This document shows positions 35,970 through 44,143 of a DNA stretch of 64,000 nt, in pieces. Position numbers and translations under genes: made by a program. The first letter of the stretch is position 1. Every line of letters starts with the position of its first letter. Source of the DNA: Hirschia sp. (GTDB taxonomy: Bacteria > Pseudomonadota > Alphaproteobacteria > Caulobacterales > Hyphomonadaceae); NCBI GenBank assembly GCA_002709235.1, contig PAQI01000011.1:85680-149679 (forward strand), given 5' to 3'. The notes beneath the pieces were generated by a model. It worked only from the letters and a program-made list of their open reading frames with translations, was not told the origin of the DNA and ran no database searches.

Positions 35970-37742
35970 TCAGATCGCCGAGAGTATAGAAACGATGAGG
36001 ACGAGACCAAGAATAATCGCTGTCCAGATCGCCGATACACCTGCAAGCGCGCCCCGACTCATCTGTCCTTCAGGCGAGAATGCGAATGTCAGCCTGCGCT
36101 GGAACACGCCAAACAGAGAGCTCATCCCTTCGCCCAGCGCCGGACCCATCCGCGCCCAGACATTGTTCGCCCAGCTCGCAATGCCAAAGCCCGGCTTGCG
36201 ATAGATCCAGTCGACATCCAGTATGGTGCCCGGCTTCTCTGGTGGATAAAGTCCGATACGTTTCAGCAGGATAAAGGCGAATATGGCCAGCACCAGCAAT
36301 TGCAGCTGGGTGATGACATGGTCAGTCGTCCACAGCGAGTGATCCAGATATTCCTGGGCCGATTCGGCGTAAGGCAGCAGGCTGTAGAGCCATCTCGTCC
36401 CGCCAAGCCCCGGCACACCCACAGCCACACAGATAAAGGCCGCACAGCCCATTGCCAGCAGCATGTTGAACGGGGCCTCCTTGGGACGCTTGCCGCTGTC
36501 ATGGCTGAAAAAGGCAAAATACGGGATCTTGATACCCGAATGCTCCAGCACACCAGCAGAGGCAAACAACAACATGCACCAGACGATGATATAGCCCTCA
36601 TGCGCAGCCGCCGACATGGTCATCGACTTGGCGATGAACCCGGAAAACAGGGGGAATGCCGAGATCGACGCACCACCGATCAGACAGAACAGGGCTGTCA
36701 GCGGCATGGTCCGATAGAGCCCGCCCAACTCGGATGCCTTGGCCGTGCCGGTACGATAGAGCACCGCCCCCATCGTCATGAACAACAATCCCTTGTACAT
36801 GATGTGCGCAAAGGCGTGGGCCGCCGCGCCATTCAGGGCATATCGGCCATATTCGGTCGACAGATCCGCCATACCGATCGCGCAGATCATGAACCCGACC
36901 TGGTTGTTCAGTGAATAGGCCAGCACCTTGCGAAGGTCGTTCTCGATCACCGCAAAGAAGACCGGGAAAATGGTCATTGCCGCGCCGATATAGATCAGGA
37001 TGTCTTCGCCCGGAAACAGCCGCGCAAAGGCATAGACCGCCAGCTTGGTCGTGAAGGCAGACAGCACCACCGCGCCAGTTGGCGTGGCCTTGGGATAGGA
37101 ATCCTGCAGCCAGTTGTGCAGGAAGGGAAAGGCCGCCTTGATTCCCAGCGCGATGAAGATCAGCCAGGCACCATTTTCCTGCAACGAAATCGCGCGAACA
37201 TGCAAATCACCATGGTTCTGCAGGTAGAATGTCGCGCCGAACAGCAGCAATACACCCGACAGGATCTGTATCGCCAGATAGCGCATGCCGGCCTTGTAGG
37301 CGGCTTTCGTGCCCGAGCGCCAGATCAGGAAGACAGATGAGATAGCTGTCAGTTCCCAGAAGATGAAAATGGTCAGCAGGTCGCCCGCCGCAGCAGCAGC
37401 CACCGCCGCGCCCGCATAGATCAGCCCGCATCCTTCCTGCAATGGGTCGTCAATATGCAGCGAATAGATGGAGTTCAGCACCGCCGCGATACCAAAGGCC
37501 AGCACGAAGATGAAGCTCAGGCTATCGACGCGATAGGTGACCATCTCGATCCCCATCAGGGAGATCACACCATGATCAACAGAGAAATCGGAATAAAGGC
37601 GCAGCAATATCAGCGCCAGAAGCGGCCCACCAATGGTCACAAAGGCGCGTAGAATCGCCGGACGGATCAGGAAGGAAAGAAACCCTGCCAGGATCATCAC
37701 GAAACCGGGATTGAGTTCTTGCAGCAGCTCCATCGACATCAC
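35970..37742 (-). CDS. Mrp/Mnh antiporter NuoL/M/N-like subunit (third D-type subunit)
   Basis: A 590-residue membrane protein with about 14-16 helices. The proton-antiporter core is clear: IFIFWELTAISSVFLIWRSG (with the key glutamate on helix 5), GIKAAFPFLHNWLQDSYPKA (key lysine on helix 7) and KVLAYSLNNQVGFMICAIG. It probably replaces the N-terminal antiporter part of MrpA, which is missing elsewhere in the operon. The extra C-terminal helices and a loop with WIYRKPGFG resemble NuoL-type ends. It is the last gene of the operon and overlaps the preceding small gene by 4 bases. Confidence 0.88.
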   Translation of the reverse strand: MMSMELLQELNPGFVMILAGFLSFLIRPAILRAFVTIGGPLLALILLRLYSDFSVDHGVISLMGIEMVTYRVDSLSFIFVLAFGIAAVLNSIYSLHIDDPLQEGCGLIYAGAAVAAAAAGDLLTIFIFWELTAISSVFLIWRSGTKAAYKAGMRYLAIQILSGVLLLFGATFYLQNHGDLHVRAISLQENGAWLIFIALGIKAAFPFLHNWLQDSYPKATPTGAVVLSAFTTKLAVYAFARLFPGEDILIYIGAAMTIFPVFFAVIENDLRKVLAYSLNNQVGFMICAIGMADLSTEYGRYALNGAAAHAFAHIMYKGLLFMTMGAVLYRTGTAKASELGGLYRTMPLTALFCLIGGASISAFPLFSGFIAKSMTMSAAAHEGYIIVWCMLLFASAGVLEHSGIKIPYFAFFSHDSGKRPKEAPFNMLLAMGCAAFICVAVGVPGLGGTRWLYSLLPYAESAQEYLDHSLWTTDHVITQLQLLVLAIFAFILLKRIGLYPPEKPGTILDVDWIYRKPGFGIASWANNVWARMGPALGEGMSSLFGVFQRRLTFAFSPEGQMSRGALAGVSAIWTAIILGLVLIVSILSAI

Positions 37743-38092
37743 GCGCCCTCCTCGTCATCGGAGGCGTCGGAGCCATCGATATCCTGATCTTCGTAGAAAT
37801 TCTCGTCCCGGCGCAACAGCTTGCCCAGCGGCCATCCGCAGACCACCACAAACGCAAAGGCGCTGAACCCGTAGAGCCCGTAGAACATCGGGAACAGGGA
37901 GAATGTCACCGGCTTGTAGGCGTGGCGCTCGATCATGAAATCGGCGACCAGCAGGCCAAGCGCGATCAGGCCGACCACGATGAACATCGCCATCGGTGCC
38001 CATTTTGCAGACGTCCAGCCAAACAGCATTCGAGCCAGCGGCGTGGAACCGTCATCCGAGCCATTAGTGTGCGTTACGGGTTTCTCGCTCAC
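37739..38092 (-). CDS. Small two-helix membrane protein in Mrp operon
   Basis: A 117-residue protein with two membrane helices (about 32-50 and 65-87) and an acidic C-terminal tail (DGSDASDDEEG). It overlaps both neighbouring genes by 4 bases (ATGA), so it is surely co-translated with the antiporter subunits. It is not one of the classical Mrp A-G subunits. A stabilising or assembly role is an inference from position. Confidence 0.75.
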   Translation of the reverse strand: MSEKPVTHTNGSDDGSTPLARMLFGWTSAKWAPMAMFIVVGLIALGLLVADFMIERHAYKPVTFSLFPMFYGLYGFSAFAFVVVCGWPLGKLLRRDENFYEDQDIDGSDASDDEEGA

Positions 38093-39597
38093 GGGCGGCC
38101 TCCGAACACGGGCGACAGGAAGTCATAAAGGACATTCACGCCGAAGAAGAGAACAATACAACCAATCGCGGTGATCAGTGGCGGCAGCACGGCCAGAGAT
38201 GGTGTGCCATTGGGCGTCTTGAAACTCGCCACCGGTGCAGAGCCTGCAGGCGGCATCAGCGCCAGGATCGAGATCGGAATCAGATAGGCCACATTCAGGA
38301 TGGACGAGATGATCAGCGTCCAGGCCACATAGGCCTTGTCGGCATCCAACGCACCAAGCATCAGCTGATATTTGGCCCAACTGCCGCCCAGCGGTGGAAC
38401 ACCGATAATCGAGAGCGTGGCCAGAAAGAAGCAGCCAAACACGATCGGCATACGCTTACCCAGCCCTCGCATCTGCGAGATATTGGTCATGCCCGTGGCG
38501 ACATAGATCGCACCCGCACACATGAACAGCGTGATCTTGCCCATGGCGTGCATCGCGATCTGAAGCGCGCCGCCCATCATGCCCGCAGAGGTCGCCAGCA
38601 TCGCCCCGACCGTCACATAGGACAGCTGCGAAATGGTGGAATATGCCAGGCGCGCCTTGAGATTGTCTTTTGTCAGGGCAATCAGCGACGATACGATGAT
38701 GGTGAAGCATCCCACCACCAGAACGATATCCTGGCCCGGTATCGATGCCAGATAATCCTGCCCGAAAATATAGGATGCCACTTTCAGCACGGTGAACACA
38801 CCTGCCTTCACCACCGCAACGGCATGAAGCAGTGCCGAGACCGGCGTAGGCGCAACCATCGCATTGGGCAGCCAGAAGTGAAACGGCATCAAGGCCGCCT
38901 TGCCGATACCAAACGCAAACAGCAAGAGCAGAACCGATCCGACCAGCGGGCTCGCCTTGCCTTCCAGCACGCCGCCCAGTGTGAATTCCGTCGTCGCCTG
39001 GGCTGCATCAAATCCATCCGGCGTCATACCGGTCACGACATAGGTGCCGACAATAGCGACCAGCAGCAGGCCGACAGATGTCCCCACCAGCGTGGTCAGA
39101 TAGATCCGTGCACCGCGCCGTGCATTCTCGTCGCCCTTATGCGCCACCAGCGGATAGGTGGAAAATGTCAGCACTTCATAGAACACGAACAGCGTGAACA
39201 GGTTTGCCGACATGGCCACACCCATCGCCGCAAACAGCGCCACGCCGAAACACATGTAAAAGCGTGTCTGGTTCTTCTCTTTGCTTCCACGCATATAGCC
39301 GATGGAATAGATCGAATTCAGAATCCACAGCCCGGATGCGATACAGGCAAACATCGCTCCCAGCGGTTCGAGCTTGAACGCGAAGGCAAATCCCTCAGCC
39401 GCCCGAATGGCCTCCCACTCCGGCGCGTCGCCACCTGAAACGCGCAGCGCCATGGAGATGGCGACCACGAACAATGTTATCGCGCTGATGACTGTGACGG
39501 TTTCGCGCACATCCGGTGCGCCGCGAAAAGCCCAGACGCCCGCTGTACAGAACAACGGAACAATCAGAGCCGCGATGATCAGCTGTTCACCGCTCAT
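38089..39597 (-). CDS. mnhD: Mrp/Mnh antiporter NuoM/N-like subunit (second D-type subunit)
   Basis: A 502-residue membrane protein with about 14 helices. Core motifs: TLFVFYEVLTFSTYPLVAHKG (helix 5 glutamate), GIGKAALMPFHFWLPNAMVA (helix 7 lysine), ALLHAVAVVKAGVF and KARLAYSTISQLSYVTVGAM. These are the proton-path residues shared by complex I NuoL/M/N and Mrp A/D. It overlaps the upstream subunit by 4 bases. Confidence 0.88.
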   Translation of the reverse strand: MSGEQLIIAALIVPLFCTAGVWAFRGAPDVRETVTVISAITLFVVAISMALRVSGGDAPEWEAIRAAEGFAFAFKLEPLGAMFACIASGLWILNSIYSIGYMRGSKEKNQTRFYMCFGVALFAAMGVAMSANLFTLFVFYEVLTFSTYPLVAHKGDENARRGARIYLTTLVGTSVGLLLVAIVGTYVVTGMTPDGFDAAQATTEFTLGGVLEGKASPLVGSVLLLLFAFGIGKAALMPFHFWLPNAMVAPTPVSALLHAVAVVKAGVFTVLKVASYIFGQDYLASIPGQDIVLVVGCFTIIVSSLIALTKDNLKARLAYSTISQLSYVTVGAMLATSAGMMGGALQIAMHAMGKITLFMCAGAIYVATGMTNISQMRGLGKRMPIVFGCFFLATLSIIGVPPLGGSWAKYQLMLGALDADKAYVAWTLIISSILNVAYLIPISILALMPPAGSAPVASFKTPNGTPSLAVLPPLITAIGCIVLFFGVNVLYDFLSPVFGGRP

Positions 39598-41144
39598 TGC
39601 GCGCCTCCTGAGATGTTGAGATCGACGCCCAATACGGCGCGGGCCCCGGCTTCAGCCATGCCAAGCGGCAGGCTGGGGTTGAGACCGAATACAATGTTGA
39701 GACCGGCCAGCAGCCAGAGCGGCAACAGCACGACAAAGGGCGCTTCCTTGATCTCGGGCGCACCTTCCTCAGCCTTGGCGAAGAAAGCCGCCTGCATGAT
39801 CCGGCCGACATAAAACAGAGCCAGGAAGGACGAGATACCGATCACTACGGCAGCCCACCACCAGCCCTCTGCCAATGTGGCTTCCAGCAGTTTCCACTTG
39901 GACAGGAAACCGGCCGTCAATGGCACACCCATCAGTGAGAAACCGGCAACAGCAAGCCCCGTGAATGTCAAAGGTGCACGTGCGGCCGCTCCATTGAAAT
40001 GTGAGACTTTCCAGACACTTGCATTGAGCGCAGCGGCCCCAACCGCCATGAACAACGCACCCTTCATCAGCGCGTGGTTGGCCATGTGGAACATGCCTGC
40101 CGTCAGGCCGGCCGCTGTACCGGTCGCAAGGCCCAGCAACATGTAACCAACCTGCGCCACCGAGGAATAGGCCAGGATGCGGCGCACATCGGTCTGGAAC
40201 ACGGCCTGGAAGGAACATGCCAGCATCGCGATCGCCGCCAGCGGGGCCAGAACGTAAAGGAAGACTGGCTCAAGGAATGAGAAGGTCGGGTCGAATACCG
40301 AGAACATGAACCGCGCCAGCGCATAGAATGCGGCCTTGGTTGCGGTCGATGACAGGAACACCGTCACGAAACTTGGTGCATGCGCATAGGCTGGCGGCAA
40401 CCACTGATGCAATGGGAACATCGCCGCCTTCAGGCCAAGCCCGACGACGATAAAGCCGAACCCGGCCTGCACGACCCGGCTGTGATGCAGGCTGTCCGCT
40501 TCCATGATCCGCGCCATGTCTGCCATGTTCAGCGTGCCGGTTGCAGCATAAAGAAAGCCCACACCGATAACGAAGAAGGTCGCACCGATCGTCCCGAGGA
40601 TCAGATAGTTGAAGGACGCAGTGAGCGCACGCCGATCCCGACCAGCCCCCAGAGCCACCAGCACATAAGTCGCAATCGAGGAAATCTCGAGGAACACGAA
40701 CAGGTTGAACGCATCGCCGGTCAGCACAATCCCCAACAGACCAGCCAGGCAGGTCTGATAGGCGGTATAAAACATGGGGCGCTTTTCGATGCGAATTTCG
40801 CGCTCCACAGCAGGCTGCGCGTAGATCGCCGACATCAATCCCATGAAGGATATGATCACCACCGCCAGTGAGTTGAGCGCATCAATACGGAACTCGATCC
40901 CGCGCGGCGGTGCCCATCCGCCCATATGATAGGAAACCACCCCGTTCTGGGACACTTCCATCGCCAGCGAAATCCCCATCCACAGGCAGAACGCGCTGGT
41001 GGCTACCGCCATATACCAGGCAAACCGGCCTGAGGGTGCCAGAACAGTGGCCGCACCAACCAGCAAGGGTGCAATAACCAGCAGGACAGGCGCATGCATC
41101 GCCAGCACCGTCGGCGCTATGACCAGATCAGCAAGCATTGTCAC
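39594..41144 (-). CDS. mnhD: Mrp/Mnh antiporter subunit D
   Basis: A 516-residue membrane protein with about 14 helices, standard MnhD length. Core motifs: NLFVFLEISSIATYVLVALG (helix 5 glutamate), GLKAAMFPLHQWLPPAYAHA (helix 7 lysine), FLSSTATKAAFYAL and RRILAYSSVAQVGYMLLG. It is directly downstream of mnhC, the usual place of mnhD, so it is the best candidate for the classical D subunit. It overlaps mnhC by 4 bases. Confidence 0.92.
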   Translation of the reverse strand: MTMLADLVIAPTVLAMHAPVLLVIAPLLVGAATVLAPSGRFAWYMAVATSAFCLWMGISLAMEVSQNGVVSYHMGGWAPPRGIEFRIDALNSLAVVIISFMGLMSAIYAQPAVEREIRIEKRPMFYTAYQTCLAGLLGIVLTGDAFNLFVFLEISSIATYVLVALGAGRDRRALTASFNYLILGTIGATFFVIGVGFLYAATGTLNMADMARIMEADSLHHSRVVQAGFGFIVVGLGLKAAMFPLHQWLPPAYAHAPSFVTVFLSSTATKAAFYALARFMFSVFDPTFSFLEPVFLYVLAPLAAIAMLACSFQAVFQTDVRRILAYSSVAQVGYMLLGLATGTAAGLTAGMFHMANHALMKGALFMAVGAAALNASVWKVSHFNGAAARAPLTFTGLAVAGFSLMGVPLTAGFLSKWKLLEATLAEGWWWAAVVIGISSFLALFYVGRIMQAAFFAKAEEGAPEIKEAPFVVLLPLWLLAGLNIVFGLNPSLPLGMAEAGARAVLGVDLNISGGAQ

Positions 41145-41932
41145 GCCGCATCGCCCTCCGCTTCACCTTCTGCAATATCGGCGGCGCGTACCTCGTCCAT
41201 TTCGATCGTCCCATAGGCTTCCCGAATACGAACAACCAGCGCCAGGCCGACAGACAATGTCGCCACGCCGACCACAATTGCGGTCAGCATCAGGACATGC
41301 GGCAGAGGGTTGGAATAAATGATATCTCCCGCCACCATGTGCAGCGGCTCTCCGCTTTGCCCATAGACAGCGTCCGCAACCGCCTGACTAGGCGCATGCG
41401 GTGTTGCAATGAATTCCGGTGATGGCAGGTCTGACACTGCGCCATGCGCATCCGCACCATTGGCAACATGCCCCGGATCTGCGCCCGGTTCAGCCCCATG
41501 TGCTTGTGCCCCATGTGCTTGTGCCCCATGTGCCTCAGACGCGTGGCCATCCACATTGTTCGGCGCAAGCTCGGTCACACCCTCGGAAATTTCCGCTTCA
41601 ACGGTCTCAAGCTGGTGCGCCACATCAGACTCTTCATGCAAAACGGGCGCAGCGTGAGTTTCGCCATGAGCCACTGCCGCGGCACCATGGCCGGCTTCGG
41701 CTGCGTGCCCGTCGCCATGGTCATCGCCATGACCTCCGGTTTCCACCAGGATCGGTGCAGTTCCGCCAGCGGTCTTACCCAGCGTGACGTAAAAGAACAG
41801 CACAGACGTCTGGAAAATCCCCAGCCCGACCAGTTTCTTGATCATGTTCTCAGCTTCGAACACGATGTATAGCCCGCCCATCATCAGAACGATGATGATC
41901 CAGTAATTATAGCGTTCCAGTACGAATTCCAT
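41141..41932 (-). CDS. mnhC: Mrp/Mnh antiporter subunit C (NuoK-like) with large His/Ala-rich insertion
   Basis: A 263-residue protein, more than twice the usual MnhC length of about 115. The three NuoK-type helices are intact: two at about 8-52 (GGLYIVFEAENMIKKLVGLG) and the third at about 208-240 (NPLPHVLMLTAIVVGVATLS). Between helices 2 and 3 about 150 residues are inserted, rich in His, Ala, Gly, Asp and Glu (GGHGDDHGDGHAAEAGHGAA, repeated HGAQA). On the NuoK topology this loop would face one side of the membrane as a flexible, possibly metal- or proton-buffering segment. The sequence on both sides is normal for the family, so this is an insertion and not a fusion. Confidence 0.9.
   Translation of the reverse strand: MEFVLERYNYWIIIVLMMGGLYIVFEAENMIKKLVGLGIFQTSVLFFYVTLGKTAGGTAPILVETGGHGDDHGDGHAAEAGHGAAAVAHGETHAAPVLHEESDVAHQLETVEAEISEGVTELAPNNVDGHASEAHGAQAHGAQAHGAEPGADPGHVANGADAHGAVSDLPSPEFIATPHAPSQAVADAVYGQSGEPLHMVAGDIIYSNPLPHVLMLTAIVVGVATLSVGLALVVRIREAYGTIEMDEVRAADIAEGEAEGDAA
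41493..41533 (+). repeat. Tandem 15-base repeat inside mnhC insertion
   Basis: The unit GCCCCATGTGCTTGT occurs 2.7 times in tandem (starts 41493, 41508, 41523). On the coding strand it encodes HGAQA-HGAQA-HGAE. The unit length is a multiple of three, so copy-number change would keep the frame. Confidence 0.85.
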
Positions 41933-41935
41933 GTC

Positions 41936-42997
41936 TTACCAGTCCTCGTCCCGGATTTCCGGCGTGCGTCCGGCAAAGGCGTAGAATGCTGTGATCATCA
42001 CACAGGCCACGGCAACGACAACACCAACTTCGACCCCGATAATGCCGGTAATCTGCGGCCAGTTATGATGGCCGTGAGCCTCACCGGATGGCGGACCGAA
42101 AATATAGTCATAATCGAGAAAGCGCCCGCCATTGAGCATGCAGATCACACCGACCAGACCATAGATTGCCACGCCCATCGCCGCACCAACACGCGCCCAG
42201 ACCGGGGGGAAAGCCGTCATGGCCGCCTTCAGTCCAAAGATCAGCGAATAGAGCATGATCGCCACAGCGAAGATCACGCCCGCCTGAAAGCCACCACCGG
42301 GTGAATATTCCCCATGGAAATGCACATAGAAGGCATACAGAACAATCAATGGAATCAACAATTTGGAAACGACGCGCAGAATAAGGTGGCTGTCATCACC
42401 CTGAGCATCATCATCTTCGCGGCCGCGCCAGTTGGATGCCGCCAGTGCGCGCTCTCCAAAGCCGATCAGCAGGATCACCGCAACCCCGGCGATAAACACC
42501 ACAACCGTCTCACCGAAGGTATCAAAGCCACGATAGCTGGCCAGGACCGCCGTCACCACGTTTGGCGTGCCGACTTCCTTGGGCGAAACCTCCATATATT
42601 GCATGCCAACACCGGTATTGACCGGAGAGTCCAGCGATCCGAATGCAGGCAGGTCAACGGATGCATAAAGCAGCGCAGATCCGGTTCCGATCACCACCAG
42701 CAATGGTGCCCAGCGCTTCAATATGCCCTTGGTCGGCTTTGCCTTGCGGACCGTCAGCAACATGGCCCCCAGATAGAGCGCAGTCGAAATACCCGCACCC
42801 ACTGCCGCTTCTGTGAAGGACACATCCACAGCATCCATCGCCTGGAACCAGGCCGCAGACACCAGCGAATACACCCCTGACAGCATGACTATCCCGAACA
42901 GGCTGGTCATGCGGATGATCGCAATCGTGATCACACCCAGCATCGACATCAGCGCAATATTCGCGATGAGAACCGAAGGAACGAATTGCTCTTCCAT
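41936..42997 (-). CDS. mnhB: Mrp/Mnh subunit A C-terminal part fused to subunit B
   Basis: A 353-residue membrane protein. Residues about 10-90 match the DUF4040/MbhD-like part of MrpA (LFGIVMLSGVYSLVSAAWFQ, FTEAAVGAGISTALYLGAML). Residues about 120-185 match the MbhE-like MrpA tail (VTAVLASYRGFDTFGETVVV). Residues about 205-345 are MnhB proper (LYAFYVHFHGEYSPGGGFQA). In classical Mrp the first two parts belong to MrpA. Here the antiporter half of A must be supplied by one of the separate NuoL/M/N-like genes. It follows mnhG by 5 bases. Confidence 0.9.
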   Translation of the reverse strand: MEEQFVPSVLIANIALMSMLGVITIAIIRMTSLFGIVMLSGVYSLVSAAWFQAMDAVDVSFTEAAVGAGISTALYLGAMLLTVRKAKPTKGILKRWAPLLVVIGTGSALLYASVDLPAFGSLDSPVNTGVGMQYMEVSPKEVGTPNVVTAVLASYRGFDTFGETVVVFIAGVAVILLIGFGERALAASNWRGREDDDAQGDDSHLILRVVSKLLIPLIVLYAFYVHFHGEYSPGGGFQAGVIFAVAIMLYSLIFGLKAAMTAFPPVWARVGAAMGVAIYGLVGVICMLNGGRFLDYDYIFGPPSGEAHGHHNWPQITGIIGVEVGVVVAVACVMITAFYAFAGRTPEIRDEDW

Positions 42998-43002
42998 ATC
43001 GA

Positions 43003-43380
43003 TCAGCCCTCTTTCGCCAATTCAGGTTTTTCGACCTTCTCGCCATTCCACTTGCCCAGAAGCGGTTCCAAACCGGCGACAAGCGCAGCATGTGCTGCTG
43101 CATTCGAGGCCGCAGGGCTGGTGATGAACAGGAACAACCACGTCATCAGAAGCTTGAAGGAATTGATGGACCAGCCAGCAAGGATCATCATGCCGCCCAG
43201 AACCAGCGTCGCACCCAGCGTATCGGTCACTGATGCTGCATGCATGCGGGTGTAGAAGTCAGGAAAGCGCAATACGCCAACCGATCCCACCAGCACGAAC
43301 AGTGCACCCAGAAGGATCACACCTGCAGCCACCATCATTCTAACGGATTCCCAGAATTCAGGAGATGTCAGATCAACCAT
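43003..43380 (-). CDS. mnhG: Mrp/Mnh antiporter subunit G
   Basis: A 125-residue protein with three membrane helices. The family segment GVLRFPDFYTRMHAASVTDT is present, followed by LGATLVLGGMMI. The C-terminal tail (LLGKWNGEKVEKPELAKEG) is hydrophilic. It overlaps mnhF by 8 bases. Confidence 0.93.
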   Translation of the reverse strand: MVDLTSPEFWESVRMMVAAGVILLGALFVLVGSVGVLRFPDFYTRMHAASVTDTLGATLVLGGMMILAGWSINSFKLLMTWLFLFITSPAASNAAAHAALVAGLEPLLGKWNGEKVEKPELAKEG

Positions 43381-43660
43381 TCTTGCCTCCCCGACGTGAC
43401 AGCGGCACCGTAAAGGAGCGGTAGCGGAAGAACTTCAGCACGGCGATCGTCCCGACAAAGTTGATCAGCGCATAAAGCAGCGCAATATCCAGAAAGTCCG
43501 GTCGGCCTGTGACAAAGCCCAGAAGTCCCAGCATCAGGACCGTCTTGGTTCCGAATGAATTGACCGCCAGAACACGGTCATAAAGCGTCGGCCCCATCAG
43601 GGTCCGCGCAAGCAGGAGCGACATGGCCGCGATAATGGCCAGGGTTGCAGCGACCAGCAT
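43373..43660 (-). CDS. mnhF: Mrp/Mnh antiporter subunit F
   Basis: A 95-residue protein with three membrane helices. GPTLYDRVLAVNSFGTKTVL and RPDFLDIALLYALINFVGTI are the conserved subunit F segments. It lies 3 bases after mnhE. Confidence 0.93.
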   Translation of the reverse strand: MLVAATLAIIAAMSLLLARTLMGPTLYDRVLAVNSFGTKTVLMLGLLGFVTGRPDFLDIALLYALINFVGTIAVLKFFRYRSFTVPLSRRGGKNG

Positions 43661-43663
43661 GGA

Positions 43664-44143
43664 TCAACTCTTCCCATCAATTGCGTAAGCGGACCTGCGG
43701 TCCATTTCGTCGAACGCGCCAGGAGCAGCATCCGCAGCGTATAGGGCGTGCACAGTCAACTCATCGCCATCCACATCAACCGTAACGGTTCCCGGCGTCA
43801 GCGTGATGGAATTGGCGAACACGACCCGCGCCAGATCAGATTTGCAGCGTGTCTTCACCTTGACGACAGCCGGTTCGATATCGGGTTCGGCCCGGATGGC
43901 AGCACGCAGGACAACCATATTGGCCTTCACGATCTCCTTCATCAGCCACACCCAGTAAAGAAGGATGCGCGGCATGATCAGATAGGGCGAGGTCTCGCGG
44001 TCAATGATCTTCAGTCGCGCTGTAAACCAGACCGTGAAGACAATGGCACCCGCTCCCATATGCAGGATCGGAAAAGTGTAATGTCCGGAGAGCCCGAGCC
44101 AGAACAGCACGAGCGCGGCTATCAAGCCGATAAAGTTAGTCAT
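43664..44143 (-). CDS. mnhE: Mrp/Mnh antiporter subunit E
   Basis: A 159-residue protein: an N-terminal membrane part (about 1-85) and a small cytoplasmic alpha-beta domain carrying the family pattern ANSITLTPGTVTVDVDGDEL. It is the first gene of the operon E-F-G-(A'B)-C-D-D-small-D on the minus strand. The whole complex exchanges sodium or potassium for protons in the inner membrane, which fits a marine habitat. The promoter should lie in the 200-base gap upstream, where no clear box was seen. Confidence 0.93.
   Translation of the reverse strand: MTNFIGLIAALVLFWLGLSGHYTFPILHMGAGAIVFTVWFTARLKIIDRETSPYLIMPRILLYWVWLMKEIVKANMVVLRAAIRAEPDIEPAVVKVKTRCKSDLARVVFANSITLTPGTVTVDVDGDELTVHALYAADAAPGAFDEMDRRSAYAIDGKS

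Follow-up and report, generated by a model that had tools for sequence, protein, structure and literature searches.

An enlarged, acidic and histidine-rich loop in the MnhC antiporter subunit of Hirschia sp. and its relatives

The closest described systems to the gene considered here are the MrpC (MnhC) subunits of Mrp antiporters, for which solved structures are available (7QRU, 6Z16), and the MbhG-type subunits of the MBH and MBS complexes (6CFW_G, 6U8Y_G). In Mrp antiporters, the periplasmic entry of protons is presumed to be located in MrpA, and residues 66 to 82 of MrpC are among the regions surrounding a putative periplasmic Na+ exit, according to an account in which that exit is presented as still debated (PMC9568556). 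The same source assigns MrpC Arg27, found in the turn between transmembrane helices TM1 and TM2, to the cytosolic side of the membrane. Bacillus-type MrpC is further described as carrying two histidines in TM2, His37 and His40 (PMC7419157).

The window, which is the whole stretch of 64,000 nucleotides of Hirschia sp. DNA analysed here, encodes a subunit of this kind (mnhC/mrpC) at positions 41141 to 41932 of the minus strand, in a single unbroken frame of 263 amino acids from ATG to stop. Membership of the MnhC/MrpC family was judged by the curated cut-off of NF005624 (PRK07375.2-3), "cation:proton antiporter subunit C", which matches the whole protein at 124.2 bits, above its threshold of 95. 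PF00420 matches at 63 bits, split into two stretches that flank an insertion, and in a six-frame search either half of MnhC alone stays under the NF005624 cut-off. The genome of origin has one MnhC match. By score, fold and operon, the ORF is a member of the MnhC/MrpC family with a loop that is a lineage-specific variant, and the coordinates, strand and identity given in the original prediction were right. The accompanying description of the core as normal stands with respect to the protein's own subfamily, the sequence being NuoK-like on both sides of the insertion, but not with respect to the TM2 histidines of Bacillus-type MrpC, as His37 and His40 are replaced by Thr42 and Leu45 (pairwise alignment with 7QRU_C, read by eye). 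Residues 41 and 42 are QT in all 12 of the commonest sequences of the order (Caulobacterales), which account for 110 of 115 proteins, and FQTSV is found at residues 41 to 45 in most relatives from the order and the class.

The gene is located in an intact mnh operon on the minus strand, together with mnhE (43664 to 44143; PF01899), mnhF (43373 to 43660; PF04066), mnhG (43003 to 43380; PF03334 and TIGR01300), a 353-amino-acid MbhD-MbhE-MnhB fusion (41936 to 42997; PF13244, PF20501 and PF04039) and three antiporter-like, MnhD-type subunits. The first of these subunits (39594 to 41144, 516 amino acids) matches PF00361 and has PRK12662 as its best NCBIfam model, under its cut-off; the second (38089 to 39597, 502 amino acids) matches PF00361 and PF00662 and has PRK08375 as its best NCBIfam model, likewise under its cut-off; the third (35970 to 37742, 590 amino acids) scores 662.6 bits against PRK12668, the cut-off of which is 564. 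Across the operon (35970 to 44143), the three antiporter-like subunits and the fusion protein replace a single large MrpA. A small protein of 117 amino acids encoded between two of the antiporter-like subunits (37739 to 38092) has no family match in Pfam or NCBIfam, but is conserved in six loci of the Ponticaulis type (L031 to L036; tblastn E values of 1e-18 to 7e-24), where it lies approximately 3 kb downstream of mnhC and shows about 42 to 54% identity over 81 to 108 amino acids. Loop comparison also identified HGHHNW in a predicted outer loop of the MnhB fusion (residues ~308 to 313, ~42056 to 42076, minus strand), the outer-loop histidine motif in the window's genus being GHHNWPQ. The idea that histidines in this MnhB loop are linked to the MnhC loop was considered and dropped, since the GQH motif of 102 of 111 MnhB proteins from the order is also present in 16 of 20 MnhB proteins from outside the order that are paired with a short MnhC loop (hand count). 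Because it is common outside the order as well, GQH in MnhB appears to be older and unlinked to the MnhC loop.

The insertion in MnhC spans residues 62 to 207 (41312 to 41749, minus strand), between TM2 and TM3, and is an acidic, histidine-rich stretch of 146 amino acids that includes 16 His, 24 Asp or Glu and 50 Gly or Ala residues and no Lys or Arg. This bears out the predicted insertion of about 150 residues rich in His, Asp and Glu, and the HGAQA repeats expected within it are present as HGAQAHGAQAHGA (residues 135 to 147), encoded by an exact 15-nt tandem repeat of 2.7 copies and 41 bases (41493 to 41533, minus strand; TRF, 100% matches). A membrane-proximal HGDDHGDGH box, scored as HGxxH type in the motif count, lies at residues 68 to 76 (41705 to 41731, minus strand). 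Among 393 crude ORFs, spurious ones kept, from 460 kb or about one eighth of the genome of origin, no other ORF equals MnhC in histidine density over spans of 100 or 140 amino acids; over spans of 60, where MnhC has 8 His, several ORFs are alike and three are higher with 9 to 10. No foreign domain was seen in the insertion, Pfam and NCBIfam showing the MnhC core alone at E values up to 0.001, and an inserted foreign domain was rejected on these core-only matches and on the stepwise change in length between genera.

MnhC matches were found in 49 of 61 genomes, comprising the genome of origin and 60 relatives, and in 125 of 200 genomes sampled from the order. The extracted set consists of 115 complete genes from 115 genomes and 28 genera in three families, f1 (50 genes, including Ponticaulis, which NCBI places in the Hyphomonadaceae), f4 (35) and f5 (30); 98 of the 125 matched order genomes are in the set, the other 27 being nine of distant types (g244/g248) and 18 not included. 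Left out were G003, in which the gene is split by contig ends, L031 to L036, the proteins of which duplicate other loci (MnhC is identical in L015 and L031), L133 and L134 (second matches to the same gene), L037 to L041 (outside the order), and L129 to L132 (another MnhC type, below thresholds). Loop length within the order ranges from 18 to 165 amino acids with a median of 55, and is at least 25 in 110 of the 115 proteins. Every one of the 115 loops carries a surplus of acidic residues (1470 Asp or Glu against 251 Lys or Arg in total), 84 contain at least three His, and those of the window's genus measure 114, 121 and 146 amino acids.

The survey of MnhC loops covered Pseudomonadota and 14 control genomes, along with a small number of loci from Clostridia and haloarchaea. 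In class genomes outside the order, all 76 contiguous matches over the cut-off (from 74 of 289 genomes) fit at most about 5 extra residues, and in phylum genomes outside the order, 11 matches in 10 of 299 genomes fit at most about 9, two genomes being also in the class sample. The loops of 20 relatives extracted from outside the order are 9 to 13 amino acids long, without a single His among 193 residues. A short TM2-TM3 loop, which is a usual rather than a formal feature of MnhC, is thus absent from the window protein (146 against 9 to 13 amino acids), and the ordinary loop is shorter than the few tens of residues originally supposed. The two outcomes that had been named as counting against the insertion, absence from close relatives and a frameshift or assembly artefact, were not observed: it is present in frame in both congeners found (114 and 121 amino acids) and across the three families, and an artefact is ruled out because the loop is in frame in these congeners as well as in the other genomes of the set of 115. 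As judged from the compared sequences, the TM2-TM3 loop of MnhC is genuinely enlarged, in a lineage-specific manner.

A fixed-length, nearly histidine-free version of the loop coexists with the swollen ones in the order. In eight genomes it is exactly 32 amino acids long with 0 or 1 His (L044, L047, L049, L051, L052 and L054 of g5, L045 of g7 and L046 of g10), most of these loops ending alike in ..YV..YGV.GVVY. Five genomes of g245/g247 have a loop of 18 amino acids with no His, and in the largest f4 loop, that of g257, His accounts for just 5 of 139 residues. Since the lineages with loops of 32 or 18 amino acids, as well as relatives outside the order, do without a swollen loop, it is dispensable for antiport as such.

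Tandem repeats make up 1822 of 25,284 loop bases (7.2%) against 3253 of 250,349 flanking bases (1.3%), are found in 37 of the 115 loops, and have a period divisible by three in 54 of 59 repeat matches. Going by these repeats, the loop has lengthened through tandem duplications, mostly in frame, in several lineages of the order. On a quick tree of the MnhC core and MnhB (135 rows, with 43 of 129 inner branches open), where changes are counted as the fewest gains or losses, the best tree requires at least five changes for loops of at least 90 amino acids, three for those of at least 25 and eleven for those with at least three His, suggesting that loops of at least 90 amino acids arose in several lineages, about five. 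Loop length and histidine fraction have a Spearman correlation of 0.27 when kinship is ignored, but independent pairs lend it no support (7 pairs, median p of 1), and the correlation was dropped.

Histidine makes up 8.1% of the loop (683 of 8428 residues) in the 115 order proteins, where codon-position base frequencies predict 4.6%; the corresponding values for the core and the Ala/Glu-rich C-tail are 1.2% and 1.6%. In 43 independent pairs, 40 to 97% identical within the loop and scored by identity, His is retained at 74% and Asp, Glu, Asn, Gln and Lys pooled at 60% (bootstrap difference 0.09 to 0.18), while 18 ungapped pairs give 72% and 59%, respectively (0.01 to 0.22). Leu (77%), Gly (73%), Arg (73%), Lys (71%) and Ala (70%) are also well retained, and His is therefore one among several well-kept loop residues that is kept better than the other two-codon polar residues pooled. 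An earlier count, in which pairs were selected on loop identity and BLOSUM62 was used, was biased towards histidine retention and a low pN; picking pairs on core divergence instead raises the loop dN/dS from 0.15 to 0.26. The latter value (0.20 to 0.32, from 30 histidine-rich pairs) is approximate, with dS near saturation and an identity-maximising alignment that lowers pN. In 41 core-chosen pairs, pN and pS are 0.26 and 0.60 in the loop and 0.04 and 0.41 in the core, a roughly sixfold difference in pN; pN exceeds pS in one of the 41 pairs, and indels occur within the loop in 30. The loop is thus fast-evolving and under weak to moderate constraint, below neutrality, with dS near saturation.

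Certain histidine spacings recur in the loops, although the shuffle comparisons pool related sequences and their counts are not calibrated probabilities. HGxxH is present in 59 of the 115 loops, where shuffling gives 8.8 on average, and falls within the first 30 residues in 55 of them. Pairs of His spaced four residues apart are more frequent than in shuffles (108 against 57), whereas HxH (2 against approximately 57 to 58) and HH (27 against 58) are depleted. Within f5, 19 of 30 loops have LHxxP followed by Asn within 2 to 14 residues (24 occurrences against 0.3 in shuffles); LHxxP is found in none of the 50 f1 loops, that of the window included, and in none of the 35 f4 loops. Loci such as L022, L068, L077 and L121 of f5 show recurring LHxxP...N and N(D/E)(L/I), neither of which is seen in f1 or f4 loops, and loops of genus g3 have a recurring segment, VDELGRP..(V/I)DG, in their second half.

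In an alignment with chain C of 7QRU, read by eye, N208, the first residue past the insertion, corresponds to residue 66 of B. pseudofirmus MrpC, and Lys32 to Arg27. Because MrpC residues 66 to 82 are near the Na+ exit and Arg27 is cytosolic, the TM2-TM3 loop should be periplasmic, in agreement with the basic residues KK (32 to 33) and RIR (235 to 237) on the face opposite the loop; the loop therefore probably lies on the periplasmic, outer side of the membrane. The original suggestion that it lies near the ion path gains support from this homology, N208 falling at the edge of the region at the putative Na+ exit. A structure model that is poor overall (mean pLDDT 56.7, 11 sequences) has the three-helix core of MnhC/MrpC proteins, with helices at residues 8 to 26, 30 to 54 and 209 onward, two of them well predicted and the third with pLDDT in the 70s. 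The loop is predicted to be mostly disordered, with pLDDT below 50 over most of its length and possible short helices at residues 104 to 117 and 183 to 189, and a fold search yielded nothing with an E value below 0.001.

The explanation that we tentatively put forward, with somewhat less than even confidence, is that the MnhC loop is a selected and disordered periplasmic cap that holds ions at the Na+ exit, metal ions being likelier than protons. By homology, the loop would cap the mouth of the Na+ exit that MnhC and MnhB are proposed to form together with the MbhD/E (MrpA C-terminal) domain. There it may reversibly hold ions locally, transition-metal ions bound by carboxylates and neutral imidazoles being the likeliest case, and in this way tune or protect the antiporter without being part of the transport path itself. 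Of the 16 His in the window loop, a computed ~0.3 would be protonated and ~98% uncharged at pH 8, an estimate that assumes pKa values (6.3 for His) and a seawater habitat. Metal is ranked above protons because His would be nearly uncharged at this pH and proton entry is presumed to be in MrpA (PMC9568556), which also leaves the original idea that the loop buffers protons weak. Neutral imidazoles would fit metal binding, however the depletion of HxH and HH counts against it. It is also possible, if somewhat doubtful, that the loop represents tolerated low-complexity growth at a permissive site, where replication slippage adds sequence, selection purges just harmful charge and hydrophobics, and His is copied from a starting HG motif. 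This is a serious rival to an ion-binding cap, as the excess of tandem repeats over the flanking bases (7.2% against 1.3%, in 37 of 115 loops), their periods divisible by three (54 of 59), the indels that separate 30 of the 41 close pairs, a loop pN roughly six times the core value, the existence of histidine-less lineages, and the retention of Gly and Ala about as well as His all agree with it. Against such growth stand a loop dN/dS of about 0.26 rather than 1, with its saturation and alignment caveats, the retention of His above other two-codon polar residues pooled, and the fact that these proteins have just 1.6% His in their Ala/Glu-rich C-tail.

A polyanionic loop with titratable His might instead act as an antenna that gathers protons, or attracts and releases Na+, at the outer face, although high salt would screen its charge. 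The excess of acidic over basic residues in 115 of 115 loops and the charge of the window loop, about -24 at pH 8 and -13 at pH 6 with assumed pKa values, would suit this role, and the gathering of scarce external protons by a large Mrp surface has already been proposed in print (PMC7419157, citing Ito 2017). An antenna is nevertheless quite improbable given that only ~0.3 of 16 His would be protonated at pH 8 (assumed pKa), that periplasmic proton entry is presumed to be in MrpA (PMC9568556), and that no loop of this kind is present in the relatives sampled outside the order. Short linear motifs such as the f5 LHxxP with its Asn (19 of 30 loops, 24 occurrences against 0.3) and the g3 segment in the second half of the loop could also mark a docking arm for a periplasmic partner. 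This is very unlikely, as the motifs are lineage-specific, LHxxP being found in 0 of 50 f1 and 0 of 35 f4 loops, and we know of no partner. Returning to the ion-holding cap, a bolder version, in which several lineages of the order separately built it and a periplasmic metal ion or pH prompts it to gate or protect the exit of Na+, would seem unlikely. Neither a regulatory cap at the Na+ exit of Mrp nor a description of a swollen MnhC loop turned up in the literature searched, which excluded subscription journals and preprints.

The natural series of loops of 18 to 165 amino acids in related genomes provides ready-made variants with which to test whether the outer mouth matters, and the native histidine-rich loop might allow tag-free purification of the complex on a metal column. 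If the loop is inert, it would be a clean case of slippage-driven loop growth in a membrane protein.

Histidine-rich metal-binding loops of the ZIP, ZnT and ZnuA kind contain runs of HxH or HH. Such runs are not matched here, HxH and HH numbering 2 and 27 where shuffles give 57 and 58. For PA4063 and similar periplasmic zinc proteins, a histidine-rich periplasmic loop is described that is disordered without metal (PMC8561739); the window loop is likewise predicted to be mostly disordered, but is part of a three-helix membrane subunit and is depleted in HxH and HH. Of the MbhG-type subunits, 6U8Y_G is the best PDB sequence match (E value of 1.2e-13) and also the top fold match, with a probability of 0.98 but an E value of 0.31, the MbhG type being the one expected. 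The operon of the window likewise has MbhD/E-like parts, here fused to MnhB, however 6CFW_G and 6U8Y_G are without the insertion (114 and 117 amino acids) and the MBH and MBS complexes include a redox module. The window protein has in common with MrpC/MnhC of Mrp antiporters (NF005624) the three-helix NuoK-like core, the operon partners and the APxx...xPLPxxL edges of the loop, and differs from it in a loop of 146 rather than about 10 amino acids and in Thr42/Leu45 where MrpC has His37/His40.
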